A stretch of 64,000 nt of DNA. It comes from Streptomyces europaeiscabiei. Its GTDB lineage: Bacteria; Actinomycetota; Actinomycetes; Streptomycetales; Streptomycetaceae. Position numbers and translations under genes: made by a program. The DNA lies in the NCBI RefSeq assembly GCF_036346855.1, contig NZ_CP107841.1:1984001-2048000 (forward strand), read 5' to 3'. Under the pieces are notes generated by a model that made no database searches, was not told the DNA's origin, and was given only the letters and a program-made list of their open reading frames with translations. Below, in pieces: positions 38,751 through 55,873 of this stretch. Within the stretch, counting starts at the first letter, position 1; the number at the start of each line of letters is the position of its first letter.

Positions 38751-38758
38751 GAGAGTAG
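38737..38758. promoter_or_regulatory. 22-bp palindrome covering both divergent start codons
   Basis: CTAC-n-CTCATG and CATGAG-n-GTAG form a perfect palindrome apart from two opposed single bases. The start codons of the MocR gene and the EamA gene both fall in its centre. It is the likely MocR operator. Both genes would then be leaderless or start further downstream. Confidence 0.65.
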
Positions 38759-39747: not shown

Positions 39748-39771
39748 GAGCGCCAGGGAGCCCGTTACGCA

Positions 39772-39788
39772 CACCGGTCCGACCGGTG
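39772..39788. terminator. Short GC-rich hairpin after the EamA gene
   Basis: CACCGGT-CCG-ACCGGTG, with 7-bp arms, 25 nt after the stop codon. The tight loop makes it a weak candidate. Confidence 0.35.
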
Positions 39789-39849
39789 CCGCCCGCAATG
39801 GACTGCGGTCACGGACCGCCACTCCCGTGCGAGACGAGGAGGCCCCCCG

Positions 39850-40047
39850 ATGCAGGCAGCTGTAGGCGACACCCTGCTGGTGCACGGCAGGACCGTCGGG
39901 CACCACGACCGGACCGCGGAGGTCCTGGAGGTGCTCGGCCATGACGGGAACCCGCCCTACCGGGTCAGGTTCGAGGACGACGGGCACGAGGCGTTGATGT
40001 CCCCGGGCCCGGACACGGTCGTCCGTCACCCCGGTGACCCGAGGTAG
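39850..40047 (+). CDS. DUF1918 domain protein
   Basis: A 65-residue protein matching DUF1918: QAAVGDTLLVHGRTVGHHDR, AEVLEVLGHDGNPPYRVRFE and GHEALMSPGPDTVVRH. It has a small beta-barrel (KOW/SH3-like) look. The function is unknown; such proteins are common and often multicopy in actinobacteria. ACGAGGAGG lies 8 nt before the ATG. It is the last intact core gene before the accessory island. Confidence 0.85.
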   Translation: MQAAVGDTLLVHGRTVGHHDRTAEVLEVLGHDGNPPYRVRFEDDGHEALMSPGPDTVVRHPGDPR

Positions 40048-40074
40048 CCGTCCCGCGTCCGTCCACCGGTCCCG

Positions 40075-40447
40075 TCAGCGCGGTGGTTCCGCCGGCCGCT
40101 GGTAGTGGTCGGCGACCACCCGCGCCGTCGCGTGGTCGGCGACCACCCGAGCCGTCGCGCCGATCCGGTCGTCCTCGACATCCTCGGCCGAGAAGAGGAC
40201 GTGTCCGCGTGCCTCCGGGACGTCGCGGGCGAGGGTGAGGTGCTCCGACAGTTCGGCCGATTCCTGCCAGGTCGCGCCGGCTGCGCCGGGTCGCCCGCCT
40301 TGTACAGGGCCCCGATGTACATCCGGGTCCCGCTGCCCCGGGCGGTCTCGGCCACCAGGGCAGCAGTTCGGCGTAGTCGGCGGCGGCGAAGCCGATGCTC
40401 CGGTACAGCTGCGGGCAGAAGTCCTGACTCTCAAGAGCGCACAACAC
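40075..40447 (-). pseudogene. Frameshifted 3' fragment of a GHL10 glycosidase-like gene
   Basis: Three frames together give pieces matching the C-terminal 110-120 residues of the intact gene at 53509-54780: CPQLYRS and YAELLPWW, then VAETARGSGTRMYIGALYKA with GDPAQPA, then EHLTLARDVPEARGHVLFSA and RVVADHYQRPAEPPR. At least two frameshifts and a short duplication (ARVVADHATARVVADHY) are visible, and no start is present. It marks the left edge of the island; the intact paralogue on the same strand marks the right edge. Confidence 0.75.
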
Positions 40448-40842
40448 GGTGATGGCGTGCCTGAAGACGGCTCTGTCCGCAGTTCCGTAAATGCTCAGGT
40501 CAGGGCCGGGAACGCAGGATCGCCTCGGCAGATTGTGTCCCGCCGAGGCAAGCGTGACGGGTCACGGAGCAGCGCGCTGCAGCCCGTATCGGCGCACAAG
40601 TCAAGGCTGCCTGCGGCGCGGAGATACGCACGGCGAGGCTCGCCCCCATGATGAGCCCGGCCGTCGAACTCGCCCGCCAGGGGCTCCTTGAGCATCGTCC
40701 TGCTCGTCGGCGCACTGCAGTGGGCGGCGACGCAGGCTCCCTCGGCAACCTCGCCGCTTCCTCACCGAACGGCGTCCGGCCCCAAAAGGTCGGCCGAGCT
40801 GCTTCGAGGGCGGCCTCGACGGCCCCGCGAAACCATCGACAC
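40448..40842. other. Island left margin, no gene seen
   Basis: About 395 nt with short frames in several registers, none with a start signal or recognisable domain. It probably consists of gene debris from the insertion events that formed the island. Confidence 0.4.
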
Positions 40843-40876
40843 GAAGTCCCGCCGGGTCAACATCCGGCGGGACTTC
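40843..40876 (-). terminator. 13-bp perfect hairpin ending the island operon
   Basis: The arms GAAGTCCCGCCGG and CCGGCGGGACTTC flank an 8-nt loop 10 nt after the stop codon of the last operon gene. There is no T run, as is common in Streptomyces. Confidence 0.75.
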
Positions 40877-40885
40877 TCGCTCACG

Positions 40886-42034
40886 CTACACGGCCCTCAA
40901 GACACCGTTTTTCACCAGGAACCGGGCGAGAGCCAAGGTCTCCCGGTCGTCAGGTATGTCTTGTTCGGCACCGATCGGGAGGTCGGCGAAGCCGATGTAC
41001 CACGGGAGCACAGTCGAGGAGACCGTGCTGCTCTTCCCGTGCGCGGCAACCAGTATCGCGCCCTGCCACTCGCACCAAAGGCGAGGCGCATGGCTGTCGA
41101 CCGCCACCCGGCGCAGGTTGATGATCTCTCCGTCCTCCGGTTCGGCACCTGCAAGTCCGTAGGCGGAGGCGCCGGCCAGCGCCGAGGCCGGGTCGACGCC
41201 GTCGCCGAGGAAGTCCTGATAACCGGCCAGCCATGCCGCGCTCACCCGACCATCCGGTTCCGCCACGATGGGGTAGGTACCTTCGCCTGGAACGAAGGAC
41301 CTGGTGTATCGCGCAATATTGAACGCGAATGCCGGGCCAACCGTCTCGGCCACGTGCCAGGTGCCCGTGTCCCAGGTGAAGAACTCACCGCTGGAGGCGA
41401 TCAGCGATGTGCCGCGGTCGACCACCGAAGGCACGGAAAGGGACGGCAGGTATTCCTCGGGGTCTATGGCGTTCATACCTTCTGCCGCACGCCACTCGAC
41501 GGAATCCGGTATCCAGTCCTCACCGTGCCAGAAGTGCATGTACTTGCGTCCCTGGAGGACAAAATGACTGTTGGCGCACTGCTCTCGATGGATACCGCCA
41601 GGTGTCGCACTATATTCGCCGAGGAACACCTCAATGTCTATGTTTCCGCGCACCAGCCCATAATCCTCGAACACCGAACGGCCGAAAGCCGACAGCAGCA
41701 GCTCGAACAGATCACGATCGTGCGAGGCCAACTCACGCGCGTAGAGCAGAATAGGGGTTCCCGCGCCGAACTCTTGCTGCAACCTGCTCAGCCATTGATC
41801 CGGCGACTCGGTGCCATCAGGAGCCGGCATCAGGGCACGGTCGGAGAGCACTTCGTCGCCCACGGTGATCTTTATCAGCTCGCGTTTGTCGTCACCTCCC
41901 AACACGGCGCGCACCGCGCCGATCACTCCCTTCCAGACCGCCTCGGGAGTGATCGCAGGGCAATCCCACGCCTCGACCCGCGTGCTCCTGGCCGAGTCGG
42001 GAGACTTCGCGATCGTCAATTGGGTTGCCACCAT
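40886..42034 (-). CDS. Cupin/JmjC-like 2-oxoglutarate-Fe(II) oxygenase (putative)
   Basis: A 382-residue protein, the last gene of the island operon. The middle part looks like a cupin-4/JmjC core: EVFLGEYSATPGGIHREQ (H149-x-E151, a possible Fe-binding HxE), NSHFVLQGRKYMHFWHGEDW and FTWDTGTWHVAETVG (H227, the distal His). The LQGRK block resembles the one that follows the HxD motif in ribosomal-oxygenase-type proteins. It would hydroxylate or desaturate the pathway intermediate. The remaining about 130 C-terminal residues are unassigned. The ATG has GAGGAA upstream, and the gene lies 90 nt after the amidohydrolase. Glu in place of Asp in the triad is less usual, so activity needs testing. Confidence 0.65.
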   Translation of the reverse strand: MVATQLTIAKSPDSARSTRVEAWDCPAITPEAVWKGVIGAVRAVLGGDDKRELIKITVGDEVLSDRALMPAPDGTESPDQWLSRLQQEFGAGTPILLYARELASHDRDLFELLLSAFGRSVFEDYGLVRGNIDIEVFLGEYSATPGGIHREQCANSHFVLQGRKYMHFWHGEDWIPDSVEWRAAEGMNAIDPEEYLPSLSVPSVVDRGTSLIASSGEFFTWDTGTWHVAETVGPAFAFNIARYTRSFVPGEGTYPIVAEPDGRVSAAWLAGYQDFLGDGVDPASALAGASAYGLAGAEPEDGEIINLRRVAVDSHAPRLWCEWQGAILVAAHGKSSTVSSTVLPWYIGFADLPIGAEQDIPDDRETLALARFLVKNGVLRAV

Positions 42035-42124
42035 GGCTGTCTTCCTCTCTGAAAAATGCCTCTGCTGTCGCTCTGACGGTTGCAGCGAGCGCCTGGAGGT
42101 CCGCTGTGGAGCGTCGTTGACCGG

Positions 42125-43825
42125 TCATTCAGTGGGGCCGCCGGATGAGAGCGCCGCGGCGTGCGTCCGCGAGCCACCCAGGCCGGCCACAGGTTCCGCT
42201 TCGAACACCTGGAGCCGGTCATACACGCACTGGCCGGCTGCGATGGTGAGGTCCACCTGCGCCTCGCACAAAGCGTCCGGTCCCTCCCGCAGGACGTCGA
42301 GGTCGAGTACCACGACATCGGCAGGGGCTCCGGGAGTCAGGGTTGCCGGGTGCTGATGCAGGTGGCCTGTGCCGGTCGTGAATGCCCGGAGAATGTCAGG
42401 CATGCCGATCCGCTCGTCGGGGTTGAGCGGATCGGGGCTGTATCCCGGGCCAAGCCAGGGCGCACTGGCCAGAGCAGGTAGCCGGGTGACCGCGACGTAG
42501 GCGCCCCAGAGCGGGTTCGGGCTGCTCACGGGCCAGTCGCTGCCGGCTGCCAGCCGGGTGCCCGCTCGGGCGAGGCTGGCGAACTGATACTGACTGTCCA
42601 CGCGGTGTGTGCCGAGCATCGGCTCGTACGTCTCTCGCATGTGCGGGATCTCCGCCGCCCAGAGCGGCTGCACGTTCGCTGTCACGTCGAGCTCGGCGAA
42701 CCTGGGCAGGTCGGCGTCGGCTACGAGCTGCACGTGGGCGATGTGGTGCCGTCGCTCGAAGGAGCGCCCGGCCGCCTGGACCGCGTCCAGGCACTCACGC
42801 ACCGCCCTGTCTCCGACGGCATGGAAGTGCACGGAGAAGTCCGCGCGAACCAGCGCGCTCACAGCCTCCCTCAGCTGTGCGGGGTGGAGTTTGCCGGGCG
42901 GCGTGACGGACCTGTCGAGGTAGGGCGAGAGCAGAGCGGCCCAGCCGTTCTCACATATGCCGTCCTGCATGATTTTCACGTGGTCCGCGGGCAGGCCAAC
43001 AGCTCGGGCCTGTTCACGTCGCGCGCACAGTTCGTCCACCTGCTCGAGCCCGCGGCCGGGATCCCACCACAGTGCCAGTGACACGGCGCCAGTCAGCTCT
43101 CCGCGGCCGGCCAGCGCGACGTAGGCAGGCAGCGGGTCGGGTAAGCCGAGGTAGGGGCCGACGAGAGCGTCCTGCCAGGCCGTGAGACCGTGCCGGTGCA
43201 GGATGCTTTGTGCCGTGAGCAGAGCGTTCTCCAGCGCTGCTCGATCCGGTACGGGTATGTGCCGACCCACCAGAGCAGCCGCTGCCTCATGGAGCAGACC
43301 CGTCGGTCGGCCGCGATGGTCCCTGACGATCGTCCCGAACGGCGGATCGGGAGTGTGCGTGCCGATGCCGGCGCGAGTGAGGGCAGTGCTGTTCACCCAG
43401 GCGTCGTGCAGGTCCGAGCCCAGAAGATAGACGGGACGGTCGCGTACGACTTTGTCGAGGAGGTCGACGGCCGGCGTACTGCCTGAAAAGAACGCCGAGT
43501 TGGCGCCTCCTCCGACGATCCAGCCAAGGTCCGTGTGCTGCCGCGCGTATGCCTGGATCCGCTCCAGAGCATCAACGGCGTCGACCGCGTCGCGCAGGTC
43601 GCACCACGATTCGAGCAGCCCGGCCGCCAGTGGATGGACATGCGCATCCTGAAAGCCAGGCATGACCAGGCGGCCGTGCGTGCCGATCACCTCGGCGTCG
43701 TGGCCCACGTCTGCCCACACCTCCCGGGCAGAGCCGACCGCGAGCACACGGTCCCCCCGCAAGGCGATCGTGTCCGCGGCATCCGATCCGAACACTCGGC
43801 CGCCAGTGAGAATGATGTCTGCCAT
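42125..43825 (-). CDS. Amidohydrolase family protein (Amidohydro_3 / YtcJ-like)
   Basis: A 566-residue metal-dependent hydrolase. Conserved elements are ILTGGRVFGSDAADTIALRG, the HxH motif in MPGFQDAHVHPLAAGLL, the carbamylated-Lys candidate in HVKIMQDGICENGW, His in SVHFHAVGDRAV and HHIAHVQLV, and Asp in AAGSDWPVSSPNP. Relatives include N-substituted formamide deformylases. It could remove an acyl or formyl group from a precursor or perform self-protection. A TTA codon (residue 228, 43142-43144) makes its translation likely bldA-dependent. The ATG at 43825 has AAGGA 8 nt upstream. The flanking genes are on the same strand. Confidence 0.85.
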   Translation of the reverse strand: MADIILTGGRVFGSDAADTIALRGDRVLAVGSAREVWADVGHDAEVIGTHGRLVMPGFQDAHVHPLAAGLLESWCDLRDAVDAVDALERIQAYARQHTDLGWIVGGGANSAFFSGSTPAVDLLDKVVRDRPVYLLGSDLHDAWVNSTALTRAGIGTHTPDPPFGTIVRDHRGRPTGLLHEAAAALVGRHIPVPDRAALENALLTAQSILHRHGLTAWQDALVGPYLGLPDPLPAYVALAGRGELTGAVSLALWWDPGRGLEQVDELCARREQARAVGLPADHVKIMQDGICENGWAALLSPYLDRSVTPPGKLHPAQLREAVSALVRADFSVHFHAVGDRAVRECLDAVQAAGRSFERRHHIAHVQLVADADLPRFAELDVTANVQPLWAAEIPHMRETYEPMLGTHRVDSQYQFASLARAGTRLAAGSDWPVSSPNPLWGAYVAVTRLPALASAPWLGPGYSPDPLNPDERIGMPDILRAFTTGTGHLHQHPATLTPGAPADVVVLDLDVLREGPDALCEAQVDLTIAAGQCVYDRLQVFEAEPVAGLGGSRTHAAALSSGGPTE

Positions 43826-43891
43826 ACCCTCGGTCCTTAAAGCGACGATATGTCCACTTGTTTGCAAAAAGGGGGAGAGCGGAAGACAGCA

Positions 43892-44677
43892 TCAGCGATC
43901 CGGGAATCGGTAGCGGCCATCGGCATCGACCGTGGCAAGACCACGTCGATCCAAGTCGCCGAGTACCGAAGCGGCTTCCTTTGCTGTCCAGCGGAACGCG
44001 CGAAACAACTCTCGCGTCGTTCCCCGCACCATGGTGTCGAGGAAGGCCGAGGCTGCTTCATGTCGGCTGGGGCCTCGTCTGACGGCAGGATCGGGAAAGA
44101 ACGCCCGACTCGTCAGTTCGATCACGCAACTGGGCCAGCCCGGACCGTCCTGCCGAGTTCCGAAATTCGTGATGAGGAGCGACCGGCCGAGTTCCGTAAG
44201 GATCCGCTGTGCCACCTTCCCGTCCAAGCCGAATGCCTCACGGATGAGGCGCATGGAGGTGGGACCTTCGAGCAGCAGGTGCTGTGCAATTTGCTTCGCC
44301 GTGGGAGACAGGGCCACCATGCGGAAGTCCTCGGGATCTCCGGCATGTGGATAGAGCATGTCGAGCATGTACGGTGAGAGAAGTGATTGTCGGCCGGCGA
44401 CGAACCGGCCGCACCAGGCACGTTGCTCCGTGGGCAGCATGTCCTTCCACGTCCAGACCAGCTCCAGATCCTCCCCCCACCCTGCGGGGAGGAGTTGCGC
44501 TTCGCTGTCTCTCCCCGCCTCTCGCAACGAGGGATAGCTGGCCGCTTTGTCGCCGAAGAGGACGACAAACCCCAAGTCCGCAATGTATGAGGCGGCTTCG
44601 TCTGCAGTTCGCAGCGGAGGTTGATCCATGCGCCAGCGGCTGATTCTCTGCGCATGCAAGATCGAATCGACGGACAT
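43892..44677 (-). CDS. AlkZ-related winged-helix protein
   Basis: A 261-residue protein that resembles the AlkZ-related (YcaQ/HTH_42-like) group by TADEAASYIADLGFVVLFGD, YPSLREAGRDSEAQLLPAGW and DLELVWTWKDMLPTEQRAWC, followed by winged-helix segments MRLIREAFGLDGKVAQRIL and TAKEAASVLGDLDRRGLATV. AlkZ itself is a DNA glycosylase that gives self-resistance in the azinomycin cluster. The Gln-x-Gln catalytic motif of AlkZ is not visible here, so glycosylase activity is doubtful and DNA binding or regulation is possible. The ATG at 44677 is chosen; ATG 44629 lacks a ribosome site. Confidence 0.6.
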   Translation of the reverse strand: MSVDSILHAQRISRWRMDQPPLRTADEAASYIADLGFVVLFGDKAASYPSLREAGRDSEAQLLPAGWGEDLELVWTWKDMLPTEQRAWCGRFVAGRQSLLSPYMLDMLYPHAGDPEDFRMVALSPTAKQIAQHLLLEGPTSMRLIREAFGLDGKVAQRILTELGRSLLITNFGTRQDGPGWPSCVIELTSRAFFPDPAVRRGPSRHEAASAFLDTMVRGTTRELFRAFRWTAKEAASVLGDLDRRGLATVDADGRYRFPDR

Positions 44678-44725
44678 CTGATGTACCTGGATTCTGGGAA
44701 CGGTTGGGCGTCGAGAGTCGATCTG

Positions 44726-45763
44726 TCAGCTATCGGGGCGGGTAGGCTGTGGGACGGCCTCGATAACGACGACTTGTCCGGGGCTCCGGCTGACGGCCGA
44801 GCATGCGAATCCGGCCGCGGACAGGAGTCGCTCGAAGTCGCCGAGGGTGCGCTCCTCTCCACGGAGGACCGACATCATGTACAGGTCCATGAGGGCAGTC
44901 ATCCTGGACTCCGCGTCACGGAGATCCTGATCCGTCGCAACACGTTCAATGATCACGAGCCGCGCGTCGGGCGTCATCGCGTGACGGCAGGCGCGGAGTA
45001 TGGCAATGCACTGCGGATCGTCCCAGTCGTGAAGGATCTCGCGCAGCAGGTAGAGATCACCGCCGCCGGGAACGTCCACGAAGAAGTCTCCGGCAACGAC
45101 CTCAGTTCGCTCCTCCAGCCCGGCTTCGGCCAGAACGTCCTTAGCCCGAGCAGCAGTCGCTTCTGTGTCCAGAAGAACGCCTCGCGCTCCAGGCGACCCG
45201 GTGAGCAAGTAGGCAAGGAGGGTTCCGTCACCGCCGCCCACGTCCACGATCGTGCGGCCGACGGGGGCGACCGCGGACTTGATGTGTTCCAGGGACAATT
45301 GGAGATCGCAAGCCTGGGATTGGTCGAACGTCTCGCGGAGCGTGGGGTGGAGGTCCAGATAGTCGAACAACGGCATGCCATGCACGGCCTCGAATCCCGG
45401 TCGGCCAGTGCGCACCGTGCCGAGCAGAGCCGCCCAGGCCGCCCCCATCTCACCATTGACGAGAAGCGCTGTCGGCCGTGCGGACCCGGGTGCATCAGCG
45501 CGAAGGGTGGCACCAAGAGGGGTCAGGGCGTACTTGCCATCGGGCAGTCGATCGAACACATCGAACGCCGTGAGAGTGCGGAGCAGTTGATTCAGAAGGT
45601 CGGGAACGGCATCGACCTCTTCAGCCAGCTCTTCGGCACTTCGCGGACCGGTGGCGAGGGCATCGGGGATACCCATGACCGCTGCCGCACATAGAGCTCG
45701 GGACAGCAATGCACCGTAGAGCATCTCGCGCATCTGCATGGGTGCTCGAAGGTCTTGAGTCAT
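44726..45763 (-). CDS. SAM-dependent O-methyltransferase
   Basis: A 345-residue class-I methyltransferase of the plant/antibiotic O-methyltransferase family (Methyltransf_2). The N-terminal winged-helix dimerisation domain is visible (MLYGALLSRALCAAAVMGIP, YALTPLGATLRADAP). SAM motif I is IVDVGGGDGTLLAYLL, and the catalytic His lies in LYLLREILHDWDDPQC. Late motifs are RLVIIERVA and RTLGDFERLLSAAGF. It should methylate a hydroxyl of the pathway product. Its start overlaps the stop of the DUF6875-like gene (ATGA). Homologues are common in aromatic polyketide and peptide clusters, so the substrate cannot be read from the sequence. Confidence 0.9.
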   Translation of the reverse strand: MTQDLRAPMQMREMLYGALLSRALCAAAVMGIPDALATGPRSAEELAEEVDAVPDLLNQLLRTLTAFDVFDRLPDGKYALTPLGATLRADAPGSARPTALLVNGEMGAAWAALLGTVRTGRPGFEAVHGMPLFDYLDLHPTLRETFDQSQACDLQLSLEHIKSAVAPVGRTIVDVGGGDGTLLAYLLTGSPGARGVLLDTEATAARAKDVLAEAGLEERTEVVAGDFFVDVPGGGDLYLLREILHDWDDPQCIAILRACRHAMTPDARLVIIERVATDQDLRDAESRMTALMDLYMMSVLRGEERTLGDFERLLSAAGFACSAVSRSPGQVVVIEAVPQPTRPDS

Positions 45764-46476
45764 CCACGATCACCTCCTCGGTCGACCAATGCGAACCCTT
45801 CGGTCGCCTTCGTATAGAGCCGACGCAGAAGACCATCTCGTACGCGATCGTCCGCGTAGTGCTGCCTGAAACGGGATTGATAGGCATCGAACTCGCTCCG
45901 CGTTCGATGCAGAAACAGAATATCGTGGACCGCCATGTGTCGAATCGCGATGACACAGGTCGGGGACTTGGAGACGGCGAAGAATTCGTTCCTGATTGCC
46001 CGCTCATCGCAATCGGGATGGAACTGACCAATCATCAAACCCTTGCTCACGGCAGACGATTTCAGCTCACTGTACAGGGCATCGATGACCTTCCAGCCTT
46101 CCGGGCCGGCGTCCGGAAGGACGACAAGAAGACTCGAGAGAGAACTGCCGGAACGCCCGGTCGATGTGCTGGTGGCGGCAAAACCGCTCAGTTCGTCAAG
46201 GATCAGGGAGCGTATGTGCTCATCATCCTCGCAGCTCACACCGTAGTGAAAACGCAGGCGCATGGCTCCGCTCTGGAGAGCGGGCATAACGAATGGGCAG
46301 ACAGGGCCACCTCTGCCCAGATCCGGTGATGGCTGACCGACGTAATCGCGCAACCATTGGAGTACAAGTGAGAGGTCGTCGCTGATCCTGTCGTGGTGCC
46401 GGCCGACAGGAGTGACTTCGATGGCTCCAGGGGGCAGTGCGGATGCCGACTGGGCCGGCAGCAGGTCTGTATTCAT
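45760..46476 (-). CDS. DUF6875-like protein
   Basis: A 238-residue protein. From memory of the family pattern I place it with DUF6875: LQWLRDYVGQPSPDLGRGGP, VCPFVMPAL, KGLMIGQFHPDCDERAIRN, FFAVSKSPTCVIAIRHMAVH and DILFLH. The paired Cys/His-rich blocks suggest a cofactor or metal site, but no catalytic function is established to my knowledge. The ATG follows AGGAGGAG at 4 nt, a strong site. The stop overlaps the methyltransferase start, so the two proteins are produced together. It lies 21 nt downstream of the SAM decarboxylase gene. Confidence 0.6.
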   Translation of the reverse strand: MNTDLLPAQSASALPPGAIEVTPVGRHHDRISDDLSLVLQWLRDYVGQPSPDLGRGGPVCPFVMPALQSGAMRLRFHYGVSCEDDEHIRSLILDELSGFAATSTSTGRSGSSLSSLLVVLPDAGPEGWKVIDALYSELKSSAVSKGLMIGQFHPDCDERAIRNEFFAVSKSPTCVIAIRHMAVHDILFLHRTRSEFDAYQSRFRQHYADDRVRDGLLRRLYTKATEGFALVDRGGDRG

Positions 46477-46497
46477 CGTCTCCTCCTCTGACGTTGA

Positions 46498-46959
46498 TCA
46501 GATCCCGGCCAAGGCGCGACCTGTGCCATTGTCAAGGCTCTTCCCCTTTTGAACTCCGCTCGCTGGAGGGGCCGCGGCAGGCAGTGAGGACGAGGGCACG
46601 CCGCGCTGAATGACGCTCATGCGGTGATTCCCTGCCTCCAGGCTTTCGACCAGCGCTTCCACGACCTTCTCCGGCCTGCAGTTGGTGCCGCAGGTGAAAG
46701 TGTCTATGAAGAGAGAGTGAGTGTCGGGATACGTGTGCACAGCGACGTGGGACTCGGAGAGGAGGAAGACAGCGGTAAAACCACTGGGCTCGAAGTTCTT
46801 GGTCTGAACGCTACAGATGCTGGCCCCGGACCTCGATATCCCCACGCGAAGCGCCTGCAGTATCAAGTCATTGTTCGTGATCTTATCGGTCGGCACATCG
46901 TAGACGTCTGCGAAGACATGGGTTCCGACGAAGTCATAGGTCACCGGCATTACATCCAT
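46498..46959 (-). CDS. speH: S-adenosylmethionine decarboxylase proenzyme
   Basis: A 153-residue proenzyme of the prokaryotic AdoMetDC family, which self-cleaves to form a pyruvoyl group and makes decarboxylated SAM, the aminopropyl donor. The cleavage site is intact: FLLSESHVAVHTYPDTHSLF, with Ser70 as pyruvoyl precursor and His71/His75 nearby. The catalytic Cys is in FIDTFTCGTNC. The N-terminus (YDFVGTHVFADVYDV) is typical. About 35 C-terminal residues are Ala/Pro-rich and not conserved. The chosen ATG overlaps the ATP-grasp stop by 10 nt; ATG 46950 (MPVTYDF) is an equally good alternative with TAATG overlap. No spermidine synthase gene is in the operon, so the aminopropyl group may go to the product. 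Confidence 0.88.
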   Translation of the reverse strand: MDVMPVTYDFVGTHVFADVYDVPTDKITNNDLILQALRVGISRSGASICSVQTKNFEPSGFTAVFLLSESHVAVHTYPDTHSLFIDTFTCGTNCRPEKVVEALVESLEAGNHRMSVIQRGVPSSSLPAAAPPASGVQKGKSLDNGTGRALAGI

Positions 46960-48146
46960 TTCATGAAGCCTTGAGCCACCAGAGTGAACTCACCGAGGCG
47001 CCGTTCGAGAAGCTCTGACGTTTCACCTTTCGCAACAAAACTCAGTACCGCGTCCGTGCTCGCTGAGGCACCAGTGAAATCTTGCGGGGCGGCAGCTCGC
47101 ACATTGAATTCTTGAATGTGAGTCGGTAGGTCCGGGACGTCGATCGCCAGCAGGGTGCCCCTTTTCGGAGGGATGAGGACCCACCCGTAGAGCTCCTTGG
47201 AAAGTTCGATCGAGCCGTTTCCGGGAACCGCCAGGCCGGCTTGGTAGCGAATCCAGGACTCAGCCGGATTCACACCGGTTCGATAGGTCAGGGCCTGTGG
47301 AACGTGCGCACCACCGAGCCGGGATGCGATCTCGCAAAAGTAGAGCTGCCCGTCGGCCTCATGGAGCATGACCTCAAGATGAAAGGGAGACCGGTCACCG
47401 GGCGGCATCGCTGCCAGCACTTCACGCGTGTACGCATTCAGGCGTGCAGCTACCGGGTTGCTCGGCTCCAGCTGCACACTGCCCAGCGGCGCGCTGTCAT
47501 GGAAGGACAGGCAATCGTTGATGTACTGCGAGGGACAGGAGTACCTGAGCTCGCCGAACTCCGCCTCGCCGTCGACATGGTAGACCAGGCCCGGAATATA
47601 CTCCTCCATCAAGATGTCGGAGAACTCCCGCTGTGCGATCTCATCCGTGAGTTGTTTTTCCGACCGAATGAGCTGCACTCCGGACGAGGCATACCCGAGC
47701 CGCGGCTTGACGACAACGGGCCAACCGAATTCGGCCGCAAAAGCATGAGCCTCGTCGAGGTCCCGCGGCGCGCAGAACCCAGGCGTGCGCAGACCCGCCG
47801 CTGCCACACGCTGCTTCATCACCAGTTTGTCTCGAAACGGCAAGGCCTCTGCAAGCGACTGACCCGGGATGCCGAACAGATCTCTGGCCTGAGCGGCTCT
47901 GAGAACGTCTTCCTCGGTCACGTGCACGATTTGTGTAACATCGTTCGCTTGGCACAACAGTTCGAGTGCCTCCTGCGTGCCGGCACCGGTCGAGTAGTCC
48001 TCGATCTCCACCATCGTGGGGAAGGTGCCGCGGTACCCGACGGCGGCCTCGGCGCTCGTGATGAGAGCCACGTCTTCTGCGACTTCTGCGAGCCAGTCAC
48101 CCAGCGGGGTCAGGATGGCCGGCACACGATTGAGCACGACGATCAC
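46950..48146 (-). CDS. ATP-grasp ligase (second)
   Basis: A 398-residue ATP-grasp enzyme of the carboxylate-amine ligase type. Features: LPFRDKLVMKQRVAAAGLRT (pre-ATP helix), PVVVKPRLGYASSGVQLI (ATP-binding Lys and Gly loop), ILMEEYIPGLVYHVDGEAEF and LYFCEIASRLGGAHVPQAL (Mg-binding Glu/Arg). It should form an amide or peptide bond through an acyl-phosphate. It overlaps the MFS gene upstream (ATGA) and the SAM decarboxylase gene downstream. With the other ATP-grasp gene in the operon it could build a dipeptide or tripeptide scaffold without an NRPS. Confidence 0.88.
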   Translation of the reverse strand: MIVVLNRVPAILTPLGDWLAEVAEDVALITSAEAAVGYRGTFPTMVEIEDYSTGAGTQEALELLCQANDVTQIVHVTEEDVLRAAQARDLFGIPGQSLAEALPFRDKLVMKQRVAAAGLRTPGFCAPRDLDEAHAFAAEFGWPVVVKPRLGYASSGVQLIRSEKQLTDEIAQREFSDILMEEYIPGLVYHVDGEAEFGELRYSCPSQYINDCLSFHDSAPLGSVQLEPSNPVAARLNAYTREVLAAMPPGDRSPFHLEVMLHEADGQLYFCEIASRLGGAHVPQALTYRTGVNPAESWIRYQAGLAVPGNGSIELSKELYGWVLIPPKRGTLLAIDVPDLPTHIQEFNVRAAAPQDFTGASASTDAVLSFVAKGETSELLERRLGEFTLVAQGFMKWM

Positions 48147-49378
48147 GGCAAGGCCTCCACTGCCGATTCAGAGCGGTTTGCAGATTTCGCGAGCAACGGG
48201 ACGCATCCGAAGATGGCCACCGCCATCACAACGAAATAGATCGTGGCGCCGACTGCGAGCAGACCACCACCGATGACCGGGCCCACGAAGAAGCCGACAT
48301 AGCGCAACTCTGCCAGGCCGAAGTAGGTACCCTTCTGTCCGTCTTCCGCCATCTTGTGAATGGCGATGTCCGGCATGGGCAGCAGGATGGCCTCGCCCAG
48401 TGTCCAGAACACGATTCCTACGTAGAGGAAAACGAAGCTCACCTGCATGGCCGAGAAGAGCAGGAGCCCTGCAGCGAACGCACCGCAACCCAGCACGATG
48501 AGCAGCCGTTCTGAAACCTTCTTCCCGAGCCATGCGATAGGCACCTGCAAGACGATGCCGAGTACCGCATTGACCATGAGGAGGGAGGCAATCAAGGCAA
48601 CCGCCTTGCCGGCGTTCTGCTCCTTGATGAACAGCGGGATGATCGAGTCGATCTGTGAGAAAACCAGGAAGATCATCCCGCCGGCACCGATGGCCGCCAT
48701 CAGCCGCCGGTCGCGGACGAGCCCCCGGAAGAGTTCGGCGTACGACTGCCGGCCCTCTTCCGCGTCTCCACCTCCTCGACCCGGATCCAATGCGACAAGA
48801 GTCGTGCCCCGGACCACCAGGAGAAGGAGGTATCCGGCAAAAAGTGCCGCAGGACATACGAACAGGTAGACCGAGCCGCCCAGGTAGAGAAGGCCGCCAA
48901 TGGCCGGCCCGACGATGGCGCCGATGCACAGAGTCATGTACCGGAAGCGGAAGATGCTGCCGTCGTCGCCCCCGGCCAGTGACATGAGTTTCTTCATGGC
49001 CGGCTCGACGAGGAGACGCCCGACACCGAGCAACATGATCAAAGCCACGATCGCTGCCGTACCTTGCACCATGGCGAGCAGGAGGTATGTAGCGATGTAA
49101 ACAGCAAGACCCAATCGGATACAGAGCACAGCACCGAGGCGATCCACCATAACGCCGCCGGCGATGCCGCCGATGGCGCTGATCAGTGCGATGCTTCCGA
49201 CAACAGCCCCAATTATCGCCAGACTGAGTTGACTGTGGTCCTTGAGATAGAGGGTCAGGAAGGGCGACGCCGAAAAGAAGGCGATCGAGTTGAGCAGACT
49301 GCCCGCGATGAGTAACCTGTTCGCTTCCCGCTGTTTACCACCGTGGGCTTCGGGAGCGGATTCATTGGTTCGTGCCAC
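48143..49378 (-). CDS. MFS transporter (12 TMS), probable product exporter
   Basis: A 411-residue major facilitator protein with about 12 hydrophobic helices. Motif A-like loop GGVMVDRLGAVLCIRLG follows TM2, and TM5 has GAIVGPAIGGLLYLGG. It belongs to the DHA1-like group often found as exporters in antibiotic clusters. Codon 22 is TTA (49313-49315), so translation should depend on the bldA tRNA, which ties export to development. The GTG start follows AGAGGA at 5 nt. Its stop overlaps the ATP-grasp start. The gene lies 44 nt after the radical SAM gene. Confidence 0.88.
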   Translation of the reverse strand: MARTNESAPEAHGGKQREANRLLIAGSLLNSIAFFSASPFLTLYLKDHSQLSLAIIGAVVGSIALISAIGGIAGGVMVDRLGAVLCIRLGLAVYIATYLLLAMVQGTAAIVALIMLLGVGRLLVEPAMKKLMSLAGGDDGSIFRFRYMTLCIGAIVGPAIGGLLYLGGSVYLFVCPAALFAGYLLLLVVRGTTLVALDPGRGGGDAEEGRQSYAELFRGLVRDRRLMAAIGAGGMIFLVFSQIDSIIPLFIKEQNAGKAVALIASLLMVNAVLGIVLQVPIAWLGKKVSERLLIVLGCGAFAAGLLLFSAMQVSFVFLYVGIVFWTLGEAILLPMPDIAIHKMAEDGQKGTYFGLAELRYVGFFVGPVIGGGLLAVGATIYFVVMAVAIFGCVPLLAKSANRSESAVEALP

Positions 49379-49422
49379 AAGGGTCCTCTGGTTTCACATG
49401 TGCAGGCGATGAGCCGGTCGTA

Positions 49423-50847
49423 TCAGGCGCTGATGACCGGGAGAGTCATCCGTCGTTCGCCGTCCGTTATGCCCTTGACGCGGCTCTTCAGCGCAACGAA
49501 GTCGTCGAGGATCTTCTGATCCGACGCCGGGGACATGTAGTACATCATGTTCACGTACCAGTACCACCCGAGTTCGGTGATGCGAAATTCTTCGGCATCC
49601 TCCACGACCAACCCCTCGGCGATGAGGTTCCCCAGTTTGTCCTTGAATTCCTGGGGGATTCGTTCCCATTCGAGCCGGCTCTTCGGCACCCATCCGAAGA
49701 AGGGGAGCCTGAAGACCAAGGATTTCTCATAGGGGATGCCGTCCGCTTGCGTCACGTTGATCTTGAAGTCGCTCTTGTCCAGCAGGTTCCTGGTGTAGGT
49801 GGCCCGGTTCTCGTCATTCATGATGGTGTAGGCGCCGGTCTGCGATATGGATGAATTACCGAAGCCGATGAGGTCGTCGTCGCTGTGGGACCAGAAGAAG
49901 CTGTTGTACAGATTGGTGTAGTCGCGAGAGATGAAGTTCGGATCAGGCTGCTCGCCGTCGGGGATCCGGTAGAATCCGTTGCCGTTGTGCTGTTGGAATC
50001 CGGAGGCGCGGATGTACTGGTTCAGGTAGATCGACATGGCCATCTTGTTCATGAAGCTGAGGGGTGCAAGGCTATTTCGCACGTAGCCATGGTGCAGAGA
50101 TGCCTGGGTCACCACGTTGGTGATCGGATAGAACTCGATGGTCTCGGTGCCGAGATCGACAGCGGACTGGATCTCTCTTGAGAACTGCTCGATGGTCTGG
50201 CCATGCATGCCATAAATGATGTCGAAACTGGTGTAGTCAAAGTAGCGGCGAAGCAGCGCAGCCGCTTCATATGTCTGGTCCAGGGTTGCGGTGATGTTGA
50301 AAAGTTCCCTGTAGACGGGATCGAATGTCTGGAGTCCGAATCGAGCCTTATTCACTCCGATATCCCGCATCGCCACGATCTTCTCTTCATCGATGCTCTT
50401 GACTTCCATCTCGAACGTGAACTCTTCGAGAACGGACATGTCAAAATGATCGTGAATGGCCTTTCCTATGCGGCGGATCTGTCCAGCTGTCAGCGTGGTC
50501 GGTGTGCCTCCGCCGAAGAATATGGCCTTGATCGGGCGGCAAGTAACCGACTCATACTTTGCTTTGATCTGAATTTCGCGGATCAATGCTTGGACATAAA
50601 GCTCGATCGCCTCATCGCCCGGCTTCCCGAGACCTCGGTTCAGCGTGCAGAAGGAGCATATGGTTTCACAGAACGGGATGTGAAAGTAGAGAGCCCTGTC
50701 ACGGATTCGGTCCACATCCAGGCTCGGAAAGAGCTTGTCATGCGACGTGACGTCCAGCTCCTGCCCCTTCATCGGGTAGAGCCAATTGTAGACGGGGAAC
50801 TGCTCATCGAATTTCATCAGGGTTTTCCCTGGCAGCAATTTCACCAT
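49423..50847 (-). CDS. HemN-like radical SAM enzyme
   Basis: A 474-residue protein with the radical SAM cluster motif C60-x3-C64-x2-C67 in YFHIPFCETICSFCTL, the GGGTPTTL block, and the HemN/HemW-like KARFGLQTFDPVYRELFN. This group includes coproporphyrinogen dehydrogenase, the heme chaperone HemW and the class-C radical SAM methyltransferases and cyclopropanases of natural-product clusters. The C-terminal region (about 380-474) does not look like HemN, and no heme genes are nearby, so a class-C tailoring role is favoured. The ATG overlaps the first ATP-grasp stop (TAATG). Base composition is clearly less GC-rich than in the flanking core genes. Confidence 0.85.
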   Translation of the reverse strand: MVKLLPGKTLMKFDEQFPVYNWLYPMKGQELDVTSHDKLFPSLDVDRIRDRALYFHIPFCETICSFCTLNRGLGKPGDEAIELYVQALIREIQIKAKYESVTCRPIKAIFFGGGTPTTLTAGQIRRIGKAIHDHFDMSVLEEFTFEMEVKSIDEEKIVAMRDIGVNKARFGLQTFDPVYRELFNITATLDQTYEAAALLRRYFDYTSFDIIYGMHGQTIEQFSREIQSAVDLGTETIEFYPITNVVTQASLHHGYVRNSLAPLSFMNKMAMSIYLNQYIRASGFQQHNGNGFYRIPDGEQPDPNFISRDYTNLYNSFFWSHSDDDLIGFGNSSISQTGAYTIMNDENRATYTRNLLDKSDFKINVTQADGIPYEKSLVFRLPFFGWVPKSRLEWERIPQEFKDKLGNLIAEGLVVEDAEEFRITELGWYWYVNMMYYMSPASDQKILDDFVALKSRVKGITDGERRMTLPVISA

Positions 50848-52172
50848 TACGTTATCTCCACACTGATAGTCGAACGAACGGCTCGAAGAGTTTCCAGGAC
50901 GTCTGCTCTCGCGGATCCTGACACCAGCAGCTTCGCTACCACGGTATTGAGATCGCGGGTCATCGGAATGAAATCGCCCGGTTGATGCGGTGAATGAACC
51001 ACTTGCACGCCCGGTATCTCGGCGGCCTGAACGAGGCCATGAATTGCTTTGAGCTCCCCTGAGTGAGCGTCATTCCTGATACAGCAGATTGCCAACAGAG
51101 CATCGAAGGCGACGCGCCCGTCCACTACAAAAGACTTACCGGGTGCATCTGTATCGCCGAGCAGGACCGACAGGGTGTCTTCGTAGGGCCTGAACGAACT
51201 GTTCAATTCCCAGTGCTCGGCGATCGAGGCTCCGGGCAGGCGGCTTCCGATTTCGATGAGGTAGATTCCGTCATCCGTGCACTTGATTTCGATGTGGCTG
51301 GGACCGAATCTGACCCCGAAGCATTCCAGCACTTCTCCGGCGAACCGGGCTGCATTCGAAAAATCCGGATCTTCATCTGTGATCTGTATGAGGTCCCAGT
51401 AGGGCTGATCATAATCTGCCGTGCCCGGTTGCCGGTACTCCCAAATGTCGATGACCCGATGTTCGCCGTCCATTGAGAACATGTTGACGGCCAATTCCCG
51501 GCCCCGTGCATAGCGCTCGACCAACCACTGGTCGATATCGGCACCGAACAGATCATGGTGGCTCAGTTCGCGAACAGTTGCCTGGAGCAGTGCGGGCTCT
51601 GCGACGAGACGAACATCCCTTGAAGCCGCCCCGGTCGAGGGCTTGATAATCAGCGGATAGCCGATCCTTCCCGCCGCGGCCGGCACCTCGGCGAAATCGC
51701 GCACGATCTCGTACTCCGGAACCCTCACGCCGCCGGCTGCGGCGAGGTCTCGCATCTCCGCCTTGTTTCGCCTGGCTCCGGCACGCGCAGGGTCATTGCC
51801 CGGCAAATTGAGGATGCCCGCAAGCGTATCGGCAAGGAAAACGCCGGGTTCCGTGGCCGGCACGACTGCCTTGATGGGCCAGCCGAAGTCATCCGGGAGA
51901 TCATCAGGCGTTCGAGCGTACAGGCTCAAATCGTCTTTTTCCCGGTGCTGCGCGGCAACTTCCGCCAGGACATCCAACGAGATCGTGTAGATGGAGACAA
52001 CGGCGAATCCGAGTGAACGACATGCGTCCTTGAACGCTTCGCCGGTCATTACGGGGTCGACGAGGACTACTGCTTCACGTCGGTCCGACCCCGCCCGGAT
52101 GCGGTTCCTTGGATTCGGCTGTCCGTTGTAAGTGTCAGGTGCAGACCTATTGCCCGCACCTGGCAGGTTCAC
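50847..52172 (-). CDS. ATP-grasp ligase (first)
   Basis: A 441-residue ATP-grasp enzyme resembling L-amino-acid ligases. Features: RRNKAEMRDLAAAGGVRVPE (pre-ATP helix), YPLIIKPSTGAASRDVRLV (ATP Lys and loop), DIDQWLVERYARGRELAVNM and GIYLIEIGSRLPGASIAEHW (metal ligands). It should couple a carboxylate to an amine as the first or second bond-forming step. The GTG start has no ribosome site of its own but overlaps the stop of a 15-codon ORF, which suggests translational coupling. Alternative starts lie further in, because the first 30 residues look unconserved. It is the first long gene of the operon. Confidence 0.87.
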   Translation of the reverse strand: MNLPGAGNRSAPDTYNGQPNPRNRIRAGSDRREAVVLVDPVMTGEAFKDACRSLGFAVVSIYTISLDVLAEVAAQHREKDDLSLYARTPDDLPDDFGWPIKAVVPATEPGVFLADTLAGILNLPGNDPARAGARRNKAEMRDLAAAGGVRVPEYEIVRDFAEVPAAAGRIGYPLIIKPSTGAASRDVRLVAEPALLQATVRELSHHDLFGADIDQWLVERYARGRELAVNMFSMDGEHRVIDIWEYRQPGTADYDQPYWDLIQITDEDPDFSNAARFAGEVLECFGVRFGPSHIEIKCTDDGIYLIEIGSRLPGASIAEHWELNSSFRPYEDTLSVLLGDTDAPGKSFVVDGRVAFDALLAICCIRNDAHSGELKAIHGLVQAAEIPGVQVVHSPHQPGDFIPMTRDLNTVVAKLLVSGSARADVLETLRAVRSTISVEIT

Positions 52173-52216
52173 GCGCGCCGCCGGCAGGTACTCTCTCTTG
52201 TCAGTGCTCGTCCCAT
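52169..52216 (-). CDS. 15-aa micro-ORF coupled to the first ATP-grasp gene
   Basis: ATG with GGGGGA 4 nt upstream, encoding MGRALTRESTCRRRA and ending in a TGA that overlaps the GTG of the next gene (GTGA). It starts 1 nt after the preceding small ORF. It most likely works by delivering ribosomes to the GTG, which lacks its own site. It is too short to assign any other role. Confidence 0.35.
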   Translation of the reverse strand: MGRALTRESTCRRRA

Positions 52217-52217
52217 T

Positions 52218-52358
52218 TTATCCCCCGTTGATAGATGGCACGCCACGAAGTGCAGTGCGAACCCGCGAGGATATGCCAGTCTGCTCGGATAGTTCGGAGT
52301 CAGTCATTCTCCGAGTGAGGAGCAAGGCGACACATTTAAGGACGGGACGGTCCTGCAT
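52218..52358 (-). CDS. 46-aa helix-turn-helix-like small ORF at the head of the island operon
   Basis: Encodes a 46-residue peptide starting MQDRPVLKCVALLLTRRMTD, with a segment SELSEQTGISSRVRTAL that fits a helix-turn-helix. The ATG lacks a clear ribosome site, and a TTG further upstream is possible. The inverted repeat TGAC-TTTT-GTCA lies 5 nt before the start. It is followed by a 15-aa ORF after 1 nt and then by the ATP-grasp gene, so it could be a small regulator of the cluster or the truncated 3' end of a longer regulator cut by the adjacent insertion remnants. Confidence 0.4.
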   Translation of the reverse strand: MQDRPVLKCVALLLTRRMTDSELSEQTGISSRVRTALRGVPSINGG

Positions 52359-52362
52359 CCGC

Positions 52363-52374
52363 TGACTTTTGTCA
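52363..52374. promoter_or_regulatory. Inverted repeat upstream of the small HTH-like ORF
   Basis: TGAC-TTTT-GTCA, 4-bp arms only, just upstream of the start codon. TTGACG (complement 52386-52391) is a possible -35 element. It is a weak candidate for the operon promoter/operator. Confidence 0.3.
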
Positions 52375-52559
52375 TGCTGCCAGAGCGTCAAGGTTCGATG
52401 CAAGCCTTTGTTCGAATGCCTTGGCCTCGGCAGCGAGGGTTCAGAGGGGCCGCCAGATTCCCGAAAGCCCCTTTGTACTGAGAGTTTGTAAGGATTCTCG
52501 GTGTCCGGTGGCTCCGTTGGGGCGGTGCTGCTCGTAGGGCTGGAAAGGTACTTGTCAAT

Positions 52560-53120
52560 CGGGGGTTCGAGGGGCTCTGGAGCCGGTCCAGGGCGTCGGT
52601 GATCAGTTCGGACCAGGGCCAGTGCCTGGCGAGTCGGAGGATGCGGTGGTGACCAGGTGAGCGGGGGTGGAGAACCGTCGCAACGGCAAACGGCGGGGCG
52701 CCCGGAGCCGGGCACAGCCGGTCGGTGCGGGTATCGGCACCCAGGTGAGCAGGAGGGGGGCGGTCTGGGCGTTTTCGAGCCAGGTTTGATTCGGCCTGTC
52801 GTCGTGGAGGGGATGGTTGCGCACGCTGGTGGCGCGGATGCGGTCCTCGGCCGGACCTCCTGCCGGTGGCGCACTTGCACGGCGGCGATCGGCGTGCGTG
52901 CCAACGGTGTTGGTGGCGAAGCGGTTCGGCCGCATGCCGTCGGCGTCGGTGAGACGGAGCGGGGCACCCGGGTACGGCCGCTCCTCGCGGACGACCAGCC
53001 ACAGCTCTTCCGGCCGACCGGCACATCGTCGGCGAGTTCGGTGACCCAGGTGCCGGTACGGAACGCGCAACCGCCGATCTTCCAGCGTCGTGGGGATCCG
53101 CGGCAGCAGCCCCTGGCCAC
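52560..53120 (-). mobile_element. IS1380-family transposase remnant (frameshifted)
   Basis: Pieces of the C-terminal part of an IS1380-type transposase occur in three minus-strand frames: FRTGTWVTELADDVPVG, then WLVVREERPYPGAPLRL with EDRIRATSVRNHPLHDD and PNQTWLENAQTAPLLLTW, then RILRLARHWPWSELITDALD. The N-terminal half is missing, and at least two frameshifts make it inactive. Terminal inverted repeats were not identified. It lies between the head of the island operon and the intact GHL10 gene, so it records past insertion at the island's right edge. Confidence 0.7.
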
Positions 53121-53372
53121 CCCCCGCAGGTCATCGCCCGCCCGCCGGGACCCATGGGCGGAGCCGCGGTGTTCAGTGGTGGAAGGAGGTCACCCGCACG
53201 ACCCTTCTCCCACGCGGCGGGCCTTCGCGGGGGCGCCCGGCTGCATGCCGTCGTCGGCCGCATTCATACGGCGCGTGGCGCTCCGGCCGTGTCCGCGCCG
53301 GCGCTGATGTTGTGCCCTTGATCGCGGTCACCTGGAGCCTGGGAGGTGTGAGCCCAGAGGAAGCAGTGCCGG

Positions 53373-53488
53373 GTGGGAATCACGTGCACGCAGCCGTACT
53401 CGGAGGATCTCAGGCGGGACGTGATCGCGCTCGTGGCGTCTTCGGGCCGGACCTTGACCGAGGTCGCCCGAGATCTACGTGAGCACCC
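53373..53488 (+). mobile_element. IS3-family OrfA transposase N-terminal fragment
   Basis: GTG-initiated frame encoding QPYSEDLRRDVIALVASSGR followed by TLTEVARDLREHPAG. This matches the N-terminal helix-turn-helix of IS3-group OrfA proteins and is cut off after about 38 residues, 20 nt before the 3' end of the GHL10 gene on the opposite strand. It is inactive. Confidence 0.65.
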
Positions 53489-53508
53489 TGCAGGGGCCCG
53501 TCCCTCAA

Positions 53509-54780: not shown

Positions 54781-54956
54781 CGCCGTACCTCCGCGTACCG
54801 CTTCCCGCGCGTCCGCCCCGTCGCGGACCGGTCCTGGCCAGCCTTCCATGTGACACCCGGAATACTGATCAGTAGGCGTCGCGGGTAACGTGCAGGTTTG
54901 GCGCAGTCCCACACCAGGGGTATCTGCCAGGCACGTAGACCAGTGAAAGGGACGAT

Positions 54957-55832: not shown

Positions 55833-55873
55833 TTCCCTCCGGACCGCTACGGACGGTCAGTTGTCCTCCCGAA

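Follow-up and report, generated by a model that had tools for sequence, protein, structure and literature searches.

In dapdiamide-type dipeptide clusters, amide bonds are formed by stand-alone ATP-grasp ligases (L-amino acid ligases) without non-ribosomal peptide synthetases (NRPS). The locus studied here shares both the stand-alone ligases and the lack of NRPS; to our knowledge, however, its SpeD, HemN-like radical SAM enzyme, DUF6875 heme enzyme and AlkZ-fold protein are absent from dapdiamide-type clusters. Single elements of the locus have counterparts in other systems. Azinomycin/hedamycin-type clusters also encode an AlkZ-fold protein inside the biosynthetic operon, and, among 68 cases of AlkZ-like proteins in Streptomyces clusters, roughly half are linked to DNA-damaging products (PMC9040887); in contrast to those glycosylases, our protein belongs to the PF24741 branch, is shorter and lacks the catalytic motif, and there is no polyketide synthase (PKS) or NRPS gene among the ten genes of the locus. 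SpeD homologs have turned several times into arginine and ornithine decarboxylases, from which true SAM decarboxylases are distinguished by a proline (PMC10407285); like the SpeD of our locus they have no spermidine synthase partner, whereas the main text of that report contains no mention of 'radical SAM', unlike the SpeD–radical-SAM pair found here. The HemN-like cyclopropanase C10P (PMC6050322) is a HemN-like radical SAM enzyme in a pathway with a methyltransferase, but neither SpeD nor an ATP-grasp ligase is mentioned in the description considered. Finally, members of the DUF6875 family have been reported as heme-binding tryptophan oxidases, one paired with a methyltransferase: the zigralone cluster zig combines both proteins, to which hydroxylation and methoxylation at C-7 of a tryptophan-derived indole were assigned, although zig directs meroterpenoid formation and includes a terpene cyclase, a prenyltransferase and P450s, none of which is found among our ten genes (PMC13307353).

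The window, i.e., the whole stretch of DNA analysed, comprises 64,000 nucleotides of Streptomyces europaeiscabiei contig NZ_CP107841.1. According to the open reading frame list and the per-kb GC profile, ten genes form one operon of low GC from 52172 to 40886 on the minus strand (Table 1), in agreement with the original prediction of at least ten long genes in a minus-strand operon. The description of these genes as mostly overlapping was wrong, as overlaps occur at four of the nine junctions (1, 4, 10 and 4 nt) and gaps of 21-90 nt at the other five. The predicted drop in GC relative to the flanks was borne out, with GC3 values of 0.644-0.785 in the operon genes against 0.852-0.938 in nine flank genes selected blind to GC, and the per-kb profile is consistent with this drop. 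Pfam families were assigned to nine of the ten genes and are consistent with the names given earlier; for the tenth, which had been named a cupin oxygenase, no family passes the curated cut-off. No PKS, NRPS or aminopropyltransferase was found among the ten genes by Pfam, an Rfam scan of 38000-56000 gave 0 matches at the gathering threshold, and no tRNA was detected in the whole window.

Table 1. Features of the island and its margins, ordered by position in the window
Feature	Coordinates	Strand	Support
Decayed copy of the GHL10 gene 3' end, island left margin	40078..40440	-	75% identity over 254 nt to intact gene
Tenth protein (382 aa), possible Fe-dependent cupin/JmjC-like oxygenase	40886..42034	-	HxE...H pattern read by eye
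Amidohydrolase, Amidohydro_3 (580 aa)	42125..43867	-	PF07969 238 bits
AlkZ-related winged-helix protein (261 aa), PF24741 branch	43892..44677	-	
O-methyltransferase (345 aa)	44726..45763	-	PF00891 135.9, PF08100 57.2 bits; closest solved structure CalO6
DUF6875 protein (238 aa), predicted heme-dependent tryptophan oxygenase	45760..46476	-	PF21780 163.1 bits (cut-off 24.5)
SpeD-type pyruvoyl SAM decarboxylase (153 aa), core gene	46498..46959	-	PF02675 102.2 bits (cut-off 25); TIGR03330 101 bits (cut-off 75.65)
LAL2, divergent ATP-grasp ligase (398 aa)	46950..48146	-	PF02222 27.3, PF13535 27.0 bits, barely at cut-off 27
MFS exporter (411 aa), core gene	48143..49378	-	PF07690 128.6 bits
HemN/HutW-like radical SAM enzyme (474 aa), CX3CX2C, core gene	49423..50847	-	PF04055 68.1 bits
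LAL1, ATP-grasp L-amino acid ligase (441 aa), first operon gene	50847..52172	-	PF13535 62.5 bits (cut-off 27); LAL_C2 37.9 (29.4)
Transposase remnant, DDE_Tnp_1_4 type, right margin	52510..53068		Copies elsewhere ~70-75% identical, two of them typed by Pfam
Short multi-copy element, right margin	53315..53476		Copy in G025 adjoins IS3-type transposase gene
Intact GHL10 gene, right neighbour of island	53509..54987	-	PF02638 274.6 bits

The operon lies in an insertion, because the two genes flanking it are only ~0.3 kb apart in four of five relatives compared; with this empty site and its deviant composition, the stretch is a genomic island. At the locus of the fifth relative (L143) there is no EamA or MocR match beside GHL10, and the same empty site is not shown there. 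The decayed GHL10 copy at the left margin had a better local match to relatives than the 3' end of the intact gene itself in 12 of 12 genomes (16 loci, four genomes present twice), a comparison somewhat favouring the decayed copy, which aligned over ~292 of 363 nt, against ~357 of 369 nt for the intact end. The intact gene is 74.1% identical to relatives at its 3' end and ~81% in its middle and 5' parts, so that its 3' quarter looks replaced. Debris and transposase remnants had been claimed for both margins; the GHL10 debris lies on the left and the transposase remnants on the right, and parts of 40383-40900, also on the left, recur in relatives at 72-79% identity. No integrase gene was found in the island, nine of its genes belonging to other families, the tenth having none, and ten margin open reading frames giving no Pfam match. 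A foreign island carrying an ATP-grasp-based biosynthetic operon, as originally proposed, is well supported.

Scattering or a lack of co-conservation of the genes had been named beforehand as an argument against that proposal; instead, a near-complete, near-collinear set recurs in two other Streptomyces (G196 and G305) and in a third actinobacterium (G1133). G196 and G305 keep the gene order of the island apart from the AlkZ-related gene, which has changed both place and orientation; they also have an additional, third ligase and, in place of DUF6875, a gene like tryptophan dioxygenase (TDO); the G1133 cluster resembles this arrangement, and a TDO-like heme-family protein occupies the DUF6875 slot in all three. 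Prevalence at E <=1e-60 amounted to 3/392 genomes of the same genus, 1/396 of the phylum and 2/394 of the class, counts that include the island's own genome each time and come from overlapping draws. In a 21-kb Actinocrispum locus, the core described below and two ligases are present, with no profile match for DUF6875, TDO-like, O-methyltransferase, amidohydrolase, tenth or AlkZ-related genes; the core thus does not include the use of tryptophan. The earlier statement that no described cluster has this exact set held in literature searches conducted outside MIBiG and partly aimed at SpeD, DUF6875/AlkZ or P422 rather than at the whole set, in which no characterised cluster with these genes was found among the papers listed.

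The core of the island is the trio of SpeD, radical SAM and MFS genes, which recurs without the remaining genes in other phyla and occurs in Actinomycetota, Burkholderia relatives, Pseudomonas and plasmids. In 22 of 25 family loci (counted anywhere in the locus), SpeD is found at most 2467 nt from the radical-SAM gene and in the same orientation; such a neighbour occurs in none of 77 generic HemN-like controls (counted within 5 kb). These controls, L007-L083, come from a scan of genome contigs that gave at least 80 loci, mostly generic HemN ones, with L004-L006 as the only family members among the 80. The SpeD profile was built from seven SpeD sequences, whose loci match by construction, and the linkage was found in 13 of 13 loci outside this building set (L125-L137). 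In the three exceptions there is no working adjacent SpeD (none in L102 and L106, a degenerate one in L103). An MFS profile match is present in 24 of 25 family loci; because the MFS, SpeD and PolIV profiles are family-specific and the control contigs include short ones, the 0/77 leaves room for other MFS genes nearby. All ten Burkholderia-family loci (17-21 kb) contain the trio without matches to the other profiles (ligase, DUF6875, TDO, O-methyltransferase, etc.), and locus L133 is counted among the 25 family loci although its radical-SAM gene is interrupted by two stops. In the six Pseudomonas/Xenorhabdus loci the trio is accompanied by a decarboxylase and, in five of them, by a Pol IV-type polymerase gene, which is absent from L137. 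The pair of SpeD and radical SAM genes recurs in unrelated bacteria, and no description of its product was found in the literature searched. This core without ligases in other phyla escaped the original prediction, as did the reported assignment of DUF6875 to a family of heme tryptophan oxygenases, while its island and operon stand.

The catalytic features of both core enzymes are preserved. In an alignment with the solved enzyme 1tlu, the island SpeD retains the pyruvoyl-forming Ser and the catalytic His and Cys, as do nine of ten aligned sequences including itself. The presence of CX3CX2C and PF04055 places the HemN/HutW-like enzyme in the radical SAM superfamily, and its Cys60, Cys64 and Cys67 are invariant in an alignment of 39 of 350 matches, itself included, taken from the 120 listed. 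An identity as a HutW/ChuW heme-degrading methyltransferase was rejected, with 160.3 bits to TIGR04107 against a cut-off of 400. Spermidine synthesis is the usual role of SpeD, and the TIGR03330 match lies above its cut-off, in line with a polyamine housekeeping gene that was swept into the island beside a conventional ATP-grasp peptide cluster; we consider this highly improbable and reject it in view of the steady linkage to the radical-SAM gene, the lack of an aminopropyltransferase gene in the operon, and the position inside the insertion of what is the sole AdoMet_dc match of the genome. The core SpeD is likewise the only such match in six of seven genomes tested, the island's own included.

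From these sequences, SpeD and the radical SAM enzyme likely make a small amine. A rather unlikely alternative is that the radical enzyme belongs to the ordinary class C C-methylases and targets the indole or a different aromatic moiety, with SpeD decarboxylating an amino-acid intermediate instead of SAM, and a methylated tryptophan amide without a SAM-derived unit as the product. HemN-like enzymes are indeed known to methylate aromatic carbons in described pathways, and the repeated change of SpeD homologs into arginine or ornithine decarboxylases (PMC10407285) fits the same alternative. Against it stand the ten Burkholderia-family loci, one with an interrupted radical-SAM gene, in which the trio has no other profile match, and the HTYP proline that the core SpeDs retain in the alignment, assuming equivalence with the position that marks true SAM decarboxylases in PMC10407285.

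Regarding the other building block, an alignment of 39 of 119 DUF6875 matches, the island protein included, shows 11 invariant columns, among them R55, C60, P61 and K139. The best fold matches of the predicted model of the island protein are five entries of AglA, which we take to be a heme arginine hydroxylase, with nitric oxide synthase heme domains scoring lower, although the VIA Z of the model is below 8, a level that a common arrangement can produce. Because DUF6875 proteins are reported to form a family of heme tryptophan oxygenases and a TDO-like protein takes this position in relatives, one unit is probably an oxidised, O-methylated tryptophan. For amide formation, LAL1 reads as a clear L-amino acid ligase, the solved structures closest to it being L-amino acid ligases, and matches NCBIfam DdaF weakly (69.2 bits, cut-off 840). 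LAL2 is present in five of five actinobacterial loci, its own included; LAL_C2 was not reported for it, and its ATP-grasp_4 score of 27.0 bits equals the cut-off of 27. The amidohydrolase is 78-79% identical to its G196 and G305 counterparts, and the tenth protein 75%. The latter has no Pfam family above cut-off (one spurious sub-threshold line), no NCBIfam family and no PDB match in a profile search; its HxE (149-151) and H227, kept in 3/3 sequences by eye, make an Fe-dependent cupin/JmjC-like oxygenase possible.

On this basis, the operon would probably make and export a small tryptophan-based amide. SpeD would decarboxylate SAM, and the HemN/HutW-like enzyme would convert the resulting product, or use it, to yield a small amine unit; the DUF6875 enzyme would oxidise tryptophan, the O-methyltransferase then capping the new hydroxyl; LAL1 and LAL2 would join the amine and tryptophan units by amide bonds; the amidohydrolase and the tenth protein would tailor or unmask the product, and the MFS protein would export it. 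In the least certain step, the product or an intermediate may damage DNA, the AlkZ-related protein shielding the producer. We give a little under even chances to the reading that the island is a biosynthetic cluster gained by horizontal transfer, with an exported small amide made by this pathway, whose chemistry is inferred throughout; the modified dipeptide or amide proposed originally is still plausible at the same inferred level. More tentatively, SpeD and the HutW-like enzyme may constitute a mobile two-enzyme module, not described in the literature searched, that converts SAM itself to a small reactive amine, decarboxylated SAM being its substrate or the radical donor. This module would be bare in Burkholderia relatives, accompanied in Pseudomonas by polymerase IV and a decarboxylase, and, in the island, its product would be joined to oxidised tryptophan by ATP-grasp ligases, defining a family of DNA-reactive natural products. 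In the island, one would then see how a mobile core becomes elaborated to a tryptophan amide. Should decarboxylated SAM be used by the radical enzyme, SAM would serve as both reagent and carbon skeleton, new enzymology for which we know of no precedent, and the SpeD–radical-SAM–exporter trio is small enough for one-tube reconstitution.

DNA-repair-type neighbours (AlkZ-related and Pol IV-type genes) would flag possible DNA-reactive products. The AlkZ-related gene is present in four actinobacterial clusters, and its product has the overall fold of AlkZ/AlkX, the top two fold matches, over 220-225 residues, being DNA cross-link glycosylases; a PDB profile search gave nine matches, all with E >0.1. 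In place of the catalytic (Q/H)-aliphatic-(Q/D) motif, GFVV is found at the presumed site, an equivalence set by sequence and position without residue-level superposition. No Q or H occurs there in 20 of 22 aligned sequences (20 of 21 matches, the 149-aa fragment P0260 being excluded, plus two loci), and the two divergent ones read HFTQ and QFSQ. Because the fold is present but the catalytic motif is absent, DNA self-protection is only suggestive. We see evenly balanced chances that the protein instead uses the AlkZ fold for regulation or binding and that the product does not damage DNA: the residues at the presumed site, the length of 261 against 371 residues in AlkZ, and winged-helix domains resembling those of many regulators argue for this, whereas the cross-link glycosylases among the fold matches, the polymerase gene in most Pseudomonas/Xenorhabdus loci and the association of Streptomyces AlkZ-like proteins with DNA-damaging products (PMC9040887) argue for protection. 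Elsewhere in the AlkZ-related protein, residues 8-10 read HAQ, a stretch that is unconserved.

The island, an inserted biosynthetic cluster in a Streptomyces-like chromosome (10.95-Mb genome), is organized as ten genes in the order LAL1, radical SAM, MFS, LAL2, SpeD, DUF6875, O-methyltransferase, AlkZ-related, Amidohydro_3 and a tenth protein, LAL1 and LAL2 being ATP-grasp ligases, and Pfam matched nine of the ten names given in the original prediction. The genes had been described as mostly overlapping, which was overstated; the operon is nevertheless likely one transcript, since overlaps occur at 4 of the 9 junctions and the gaps at the other 5 are 21-90 nt. Regarding the tenth protein, proposed as a cupin oxygenase, an HxE...H pattern (residues 149-151 and 227; conserved in 3/3 sequences), read by eye, would fit an iron enzyme of cupin or JmjC-like type; the family assignment itself was not recovered, with no family over cut-off in Pfam or NCBIfam and no PDB match.

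The island is an insertion. GHL10 and EamA, the host genes on either side, are adjacent (~0.3 kb apart, gene order conserved) in 4 of the 5 relatives fetched (L144-L147), and are separated here by 13,761 nt, with the island between them; the fifth relative (L143) had no EamA or MocR match at the corresponding place. The predicted low GC was borne out by GC3, which ranged from 0.644 to 0.785 (mean 0.721) in the ten island genes, whereas nine flank genes gave 0.852-0.938 (mean 0.904); the per-kb GC profile was concordant. Both the transposase remnant and the gene debris expected at the margins were located (see table), together with a second repeated element at the right, and no integrase was found by Pfam among the island genes or margin ORFs. 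The debris is a decayed GHL10 3' end. In a comparison of 16 loci from 12 distinct genomes, this copy displayed a mean identity of 77.7% to relatives' GHL10 3' ends where aligned, compared with 74.1% for the 3' end of the intact gene; the middle and 5' portions of that gene were ~81% identical to those of relatives. The decayed copy was nearer to relatives than the intact 3' end in 12/12 genomes, but over a shorter aligned stretch. The simplest reading would be that the incoming DNA brought a new GHL10 3' end and displaced the native one, which seems to have been replaced upon island arrival.

Coordinates of features in the window and in related loci
Feature	Position	Location	Remarks
Ten-gene operon	52172 down to 40886	Window, minus strand	Gene calls
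Decayed GHL10 3' end	40078-40440	EamA side of island	75% over 254 nt to intact copy
Left-margin segment	40460-40765	Left margin	Parts recur in several relatives at 72-79% identity
DDE_Tnp_1_4 transposase remnant	52510-53068	Right margin
Intact GHL10	53509-54987	Window
SpeD–radical SAM–MFS–Orn/Lys/Arg decarboxylase, Pol IV-type gene adjoining	L006 9583-15767; L134-L136; L105 9841-16786	Pseudomonas and Xenorhabdus plasmid
Compact SpeD–radical SAM–P450–MFS operon	L104 1336-5406	Glaesserella parasuis pD74, 11.6-kb plasmid	MFS profile matches two consecutive frames
Radical SAM, P450 and MFS, without SpeD	L102 6141-11143	Klebsiella pneumoniae plasmid NZ_CP040995.1	Interrupted by ISL3 transposase gene
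Small gene between radical-SAM and MFS genes	L103 13519-13917	Alicyclobacillus plasmid
Radical SAM with annotated MFS and DinB-family protein	L106 9980-13113	Cytobacillus kochii plasmid
Weak proline-dehydrogenase-like protein (27.3 bits, cut-off 27)	L004 11427-12245	Actinocrispum	Flanked by radical-SAM gene and LAL1

SpeD, the radical-SAM enzyme and MFS constitute a core that recurs in unrelated bacteria. Among 25 loci of the radical-SAM family (one, from the Streptomyces genome G196, split over L098 and L099), 22 had a nearby SpeD in the same orientation and 24 contained an MFS profile match; neither occurred within 5 kb in 77 generic HemN-like control loci (0/77 each). The radical-SAM gene was present in 10/239 genomes of a Burkholderia-family set and 5/239 of a Pseudomonas set (query genomes counted). 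All ten Burkholderia-family loci carried radical-SAM–MFS–SpeD, with no match to the other profiles used (0/10), while the five Pseudomonas loci and the Xenorhabdus plasmid carried an additional Orn/Lys/Arg decarboxylase (6/6) and, in 5/6, a gene for a Pol IV-type polymerase, which in Xenorhabdus is encoded on the other strand. The Klebsiella host's own SpeD may serve the plasmid enzyme. When aligned with SpeD, the Alicyclobacillus small gene was without the catalytic serine, histidine and cysteine and may not be a SpeD; no SpeD was found at the Cytobacillus locus, which holds the most divergent member of the family (30% identity). In a 31-row tree combining 25 family sequences with 6 controls, the five actinobacterial sequences formed one group (99/100) and the ten Burkholderia-family sequences another (98/96), while L103 (Alicyclobacillus) and L106 (Cytobacillus) were placed with uncertainty.

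The island SpeD, aligned to 1tlu, retains the serine, histidine and cysteine named as catalytic for the T. maritima enzyme in PMC10407285, as do nine of ten aligned sequences, the island's counted. Because it is the sole AdoMet_dc match in its genome, SAM decarboxylation probably came into the host with the island; single matches also occur in G196, G305 (another Streptomyces), G1133 (a third actinobacterium), Trinickia and P. gingeri, and two in Actinocrispum. We infer each chemical step of a pathway in which SpeD would yield decarboxylated SAM, the radical-SAM enzyme would convert or use it to give a small amine, a methoxy-tryptophan would come from DUF6875 and the methyltransferase, both ligases would couple the pieces, the amidohydrolase and tenth protein would complete the molecule, and MFS would export it. 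What the analysis shows directly is gene content, linkage, insertion and predicted folds.

The gene set is genuine, and it is rare: at E up to 1e-60, and counting the own genome each time, the radical-SAM gene was present in 3/392 same-genus, 1/396 phylum and 2/394 class genomes. Among the papers listed from open-licence PMC literature, titles and abstract openings gave neither a SpeD–radical-SAM biosynthetic pair nor this gene set, which is not proof that either is undescribed. G196 and G305 share the order AlkZ-related (divergent), third ligase, LAL1, radical SAM, MFS, LAL2, SpeD, further gene, O-methyltransferase, amidohydrolase and tenth protein. The set recurs in G1133, a member of a different family, where the AlkZ-related and amidohydrolase genes lie on the other strand and the 19.9 kb fetched yielded no tenth gene. 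The further gene of all three, situated where the island has DUF6875, encodes a tryptophan-dioxygenase-like heme-family protein (PF03301, 50.8 bits; PDB tryptophan dioxygenases matched). Contigs of equal size recurred between protein lists, namely 91953 and 21769 nt (radical SAM and DUF6875), 124646 and 41173 nt (radical SAM and AlkZ-related) and 65733 nt (DUF6875 and AlkZ-related), and size alone suggests that these are shared contigs. Two divergent AlkZ-related proteins (P0257 and P0258 in alignment A5) have H/Q-F-T/S-Q at the position of the window protein's GFVV, possibly a trace of an ancestral glycosylase site.
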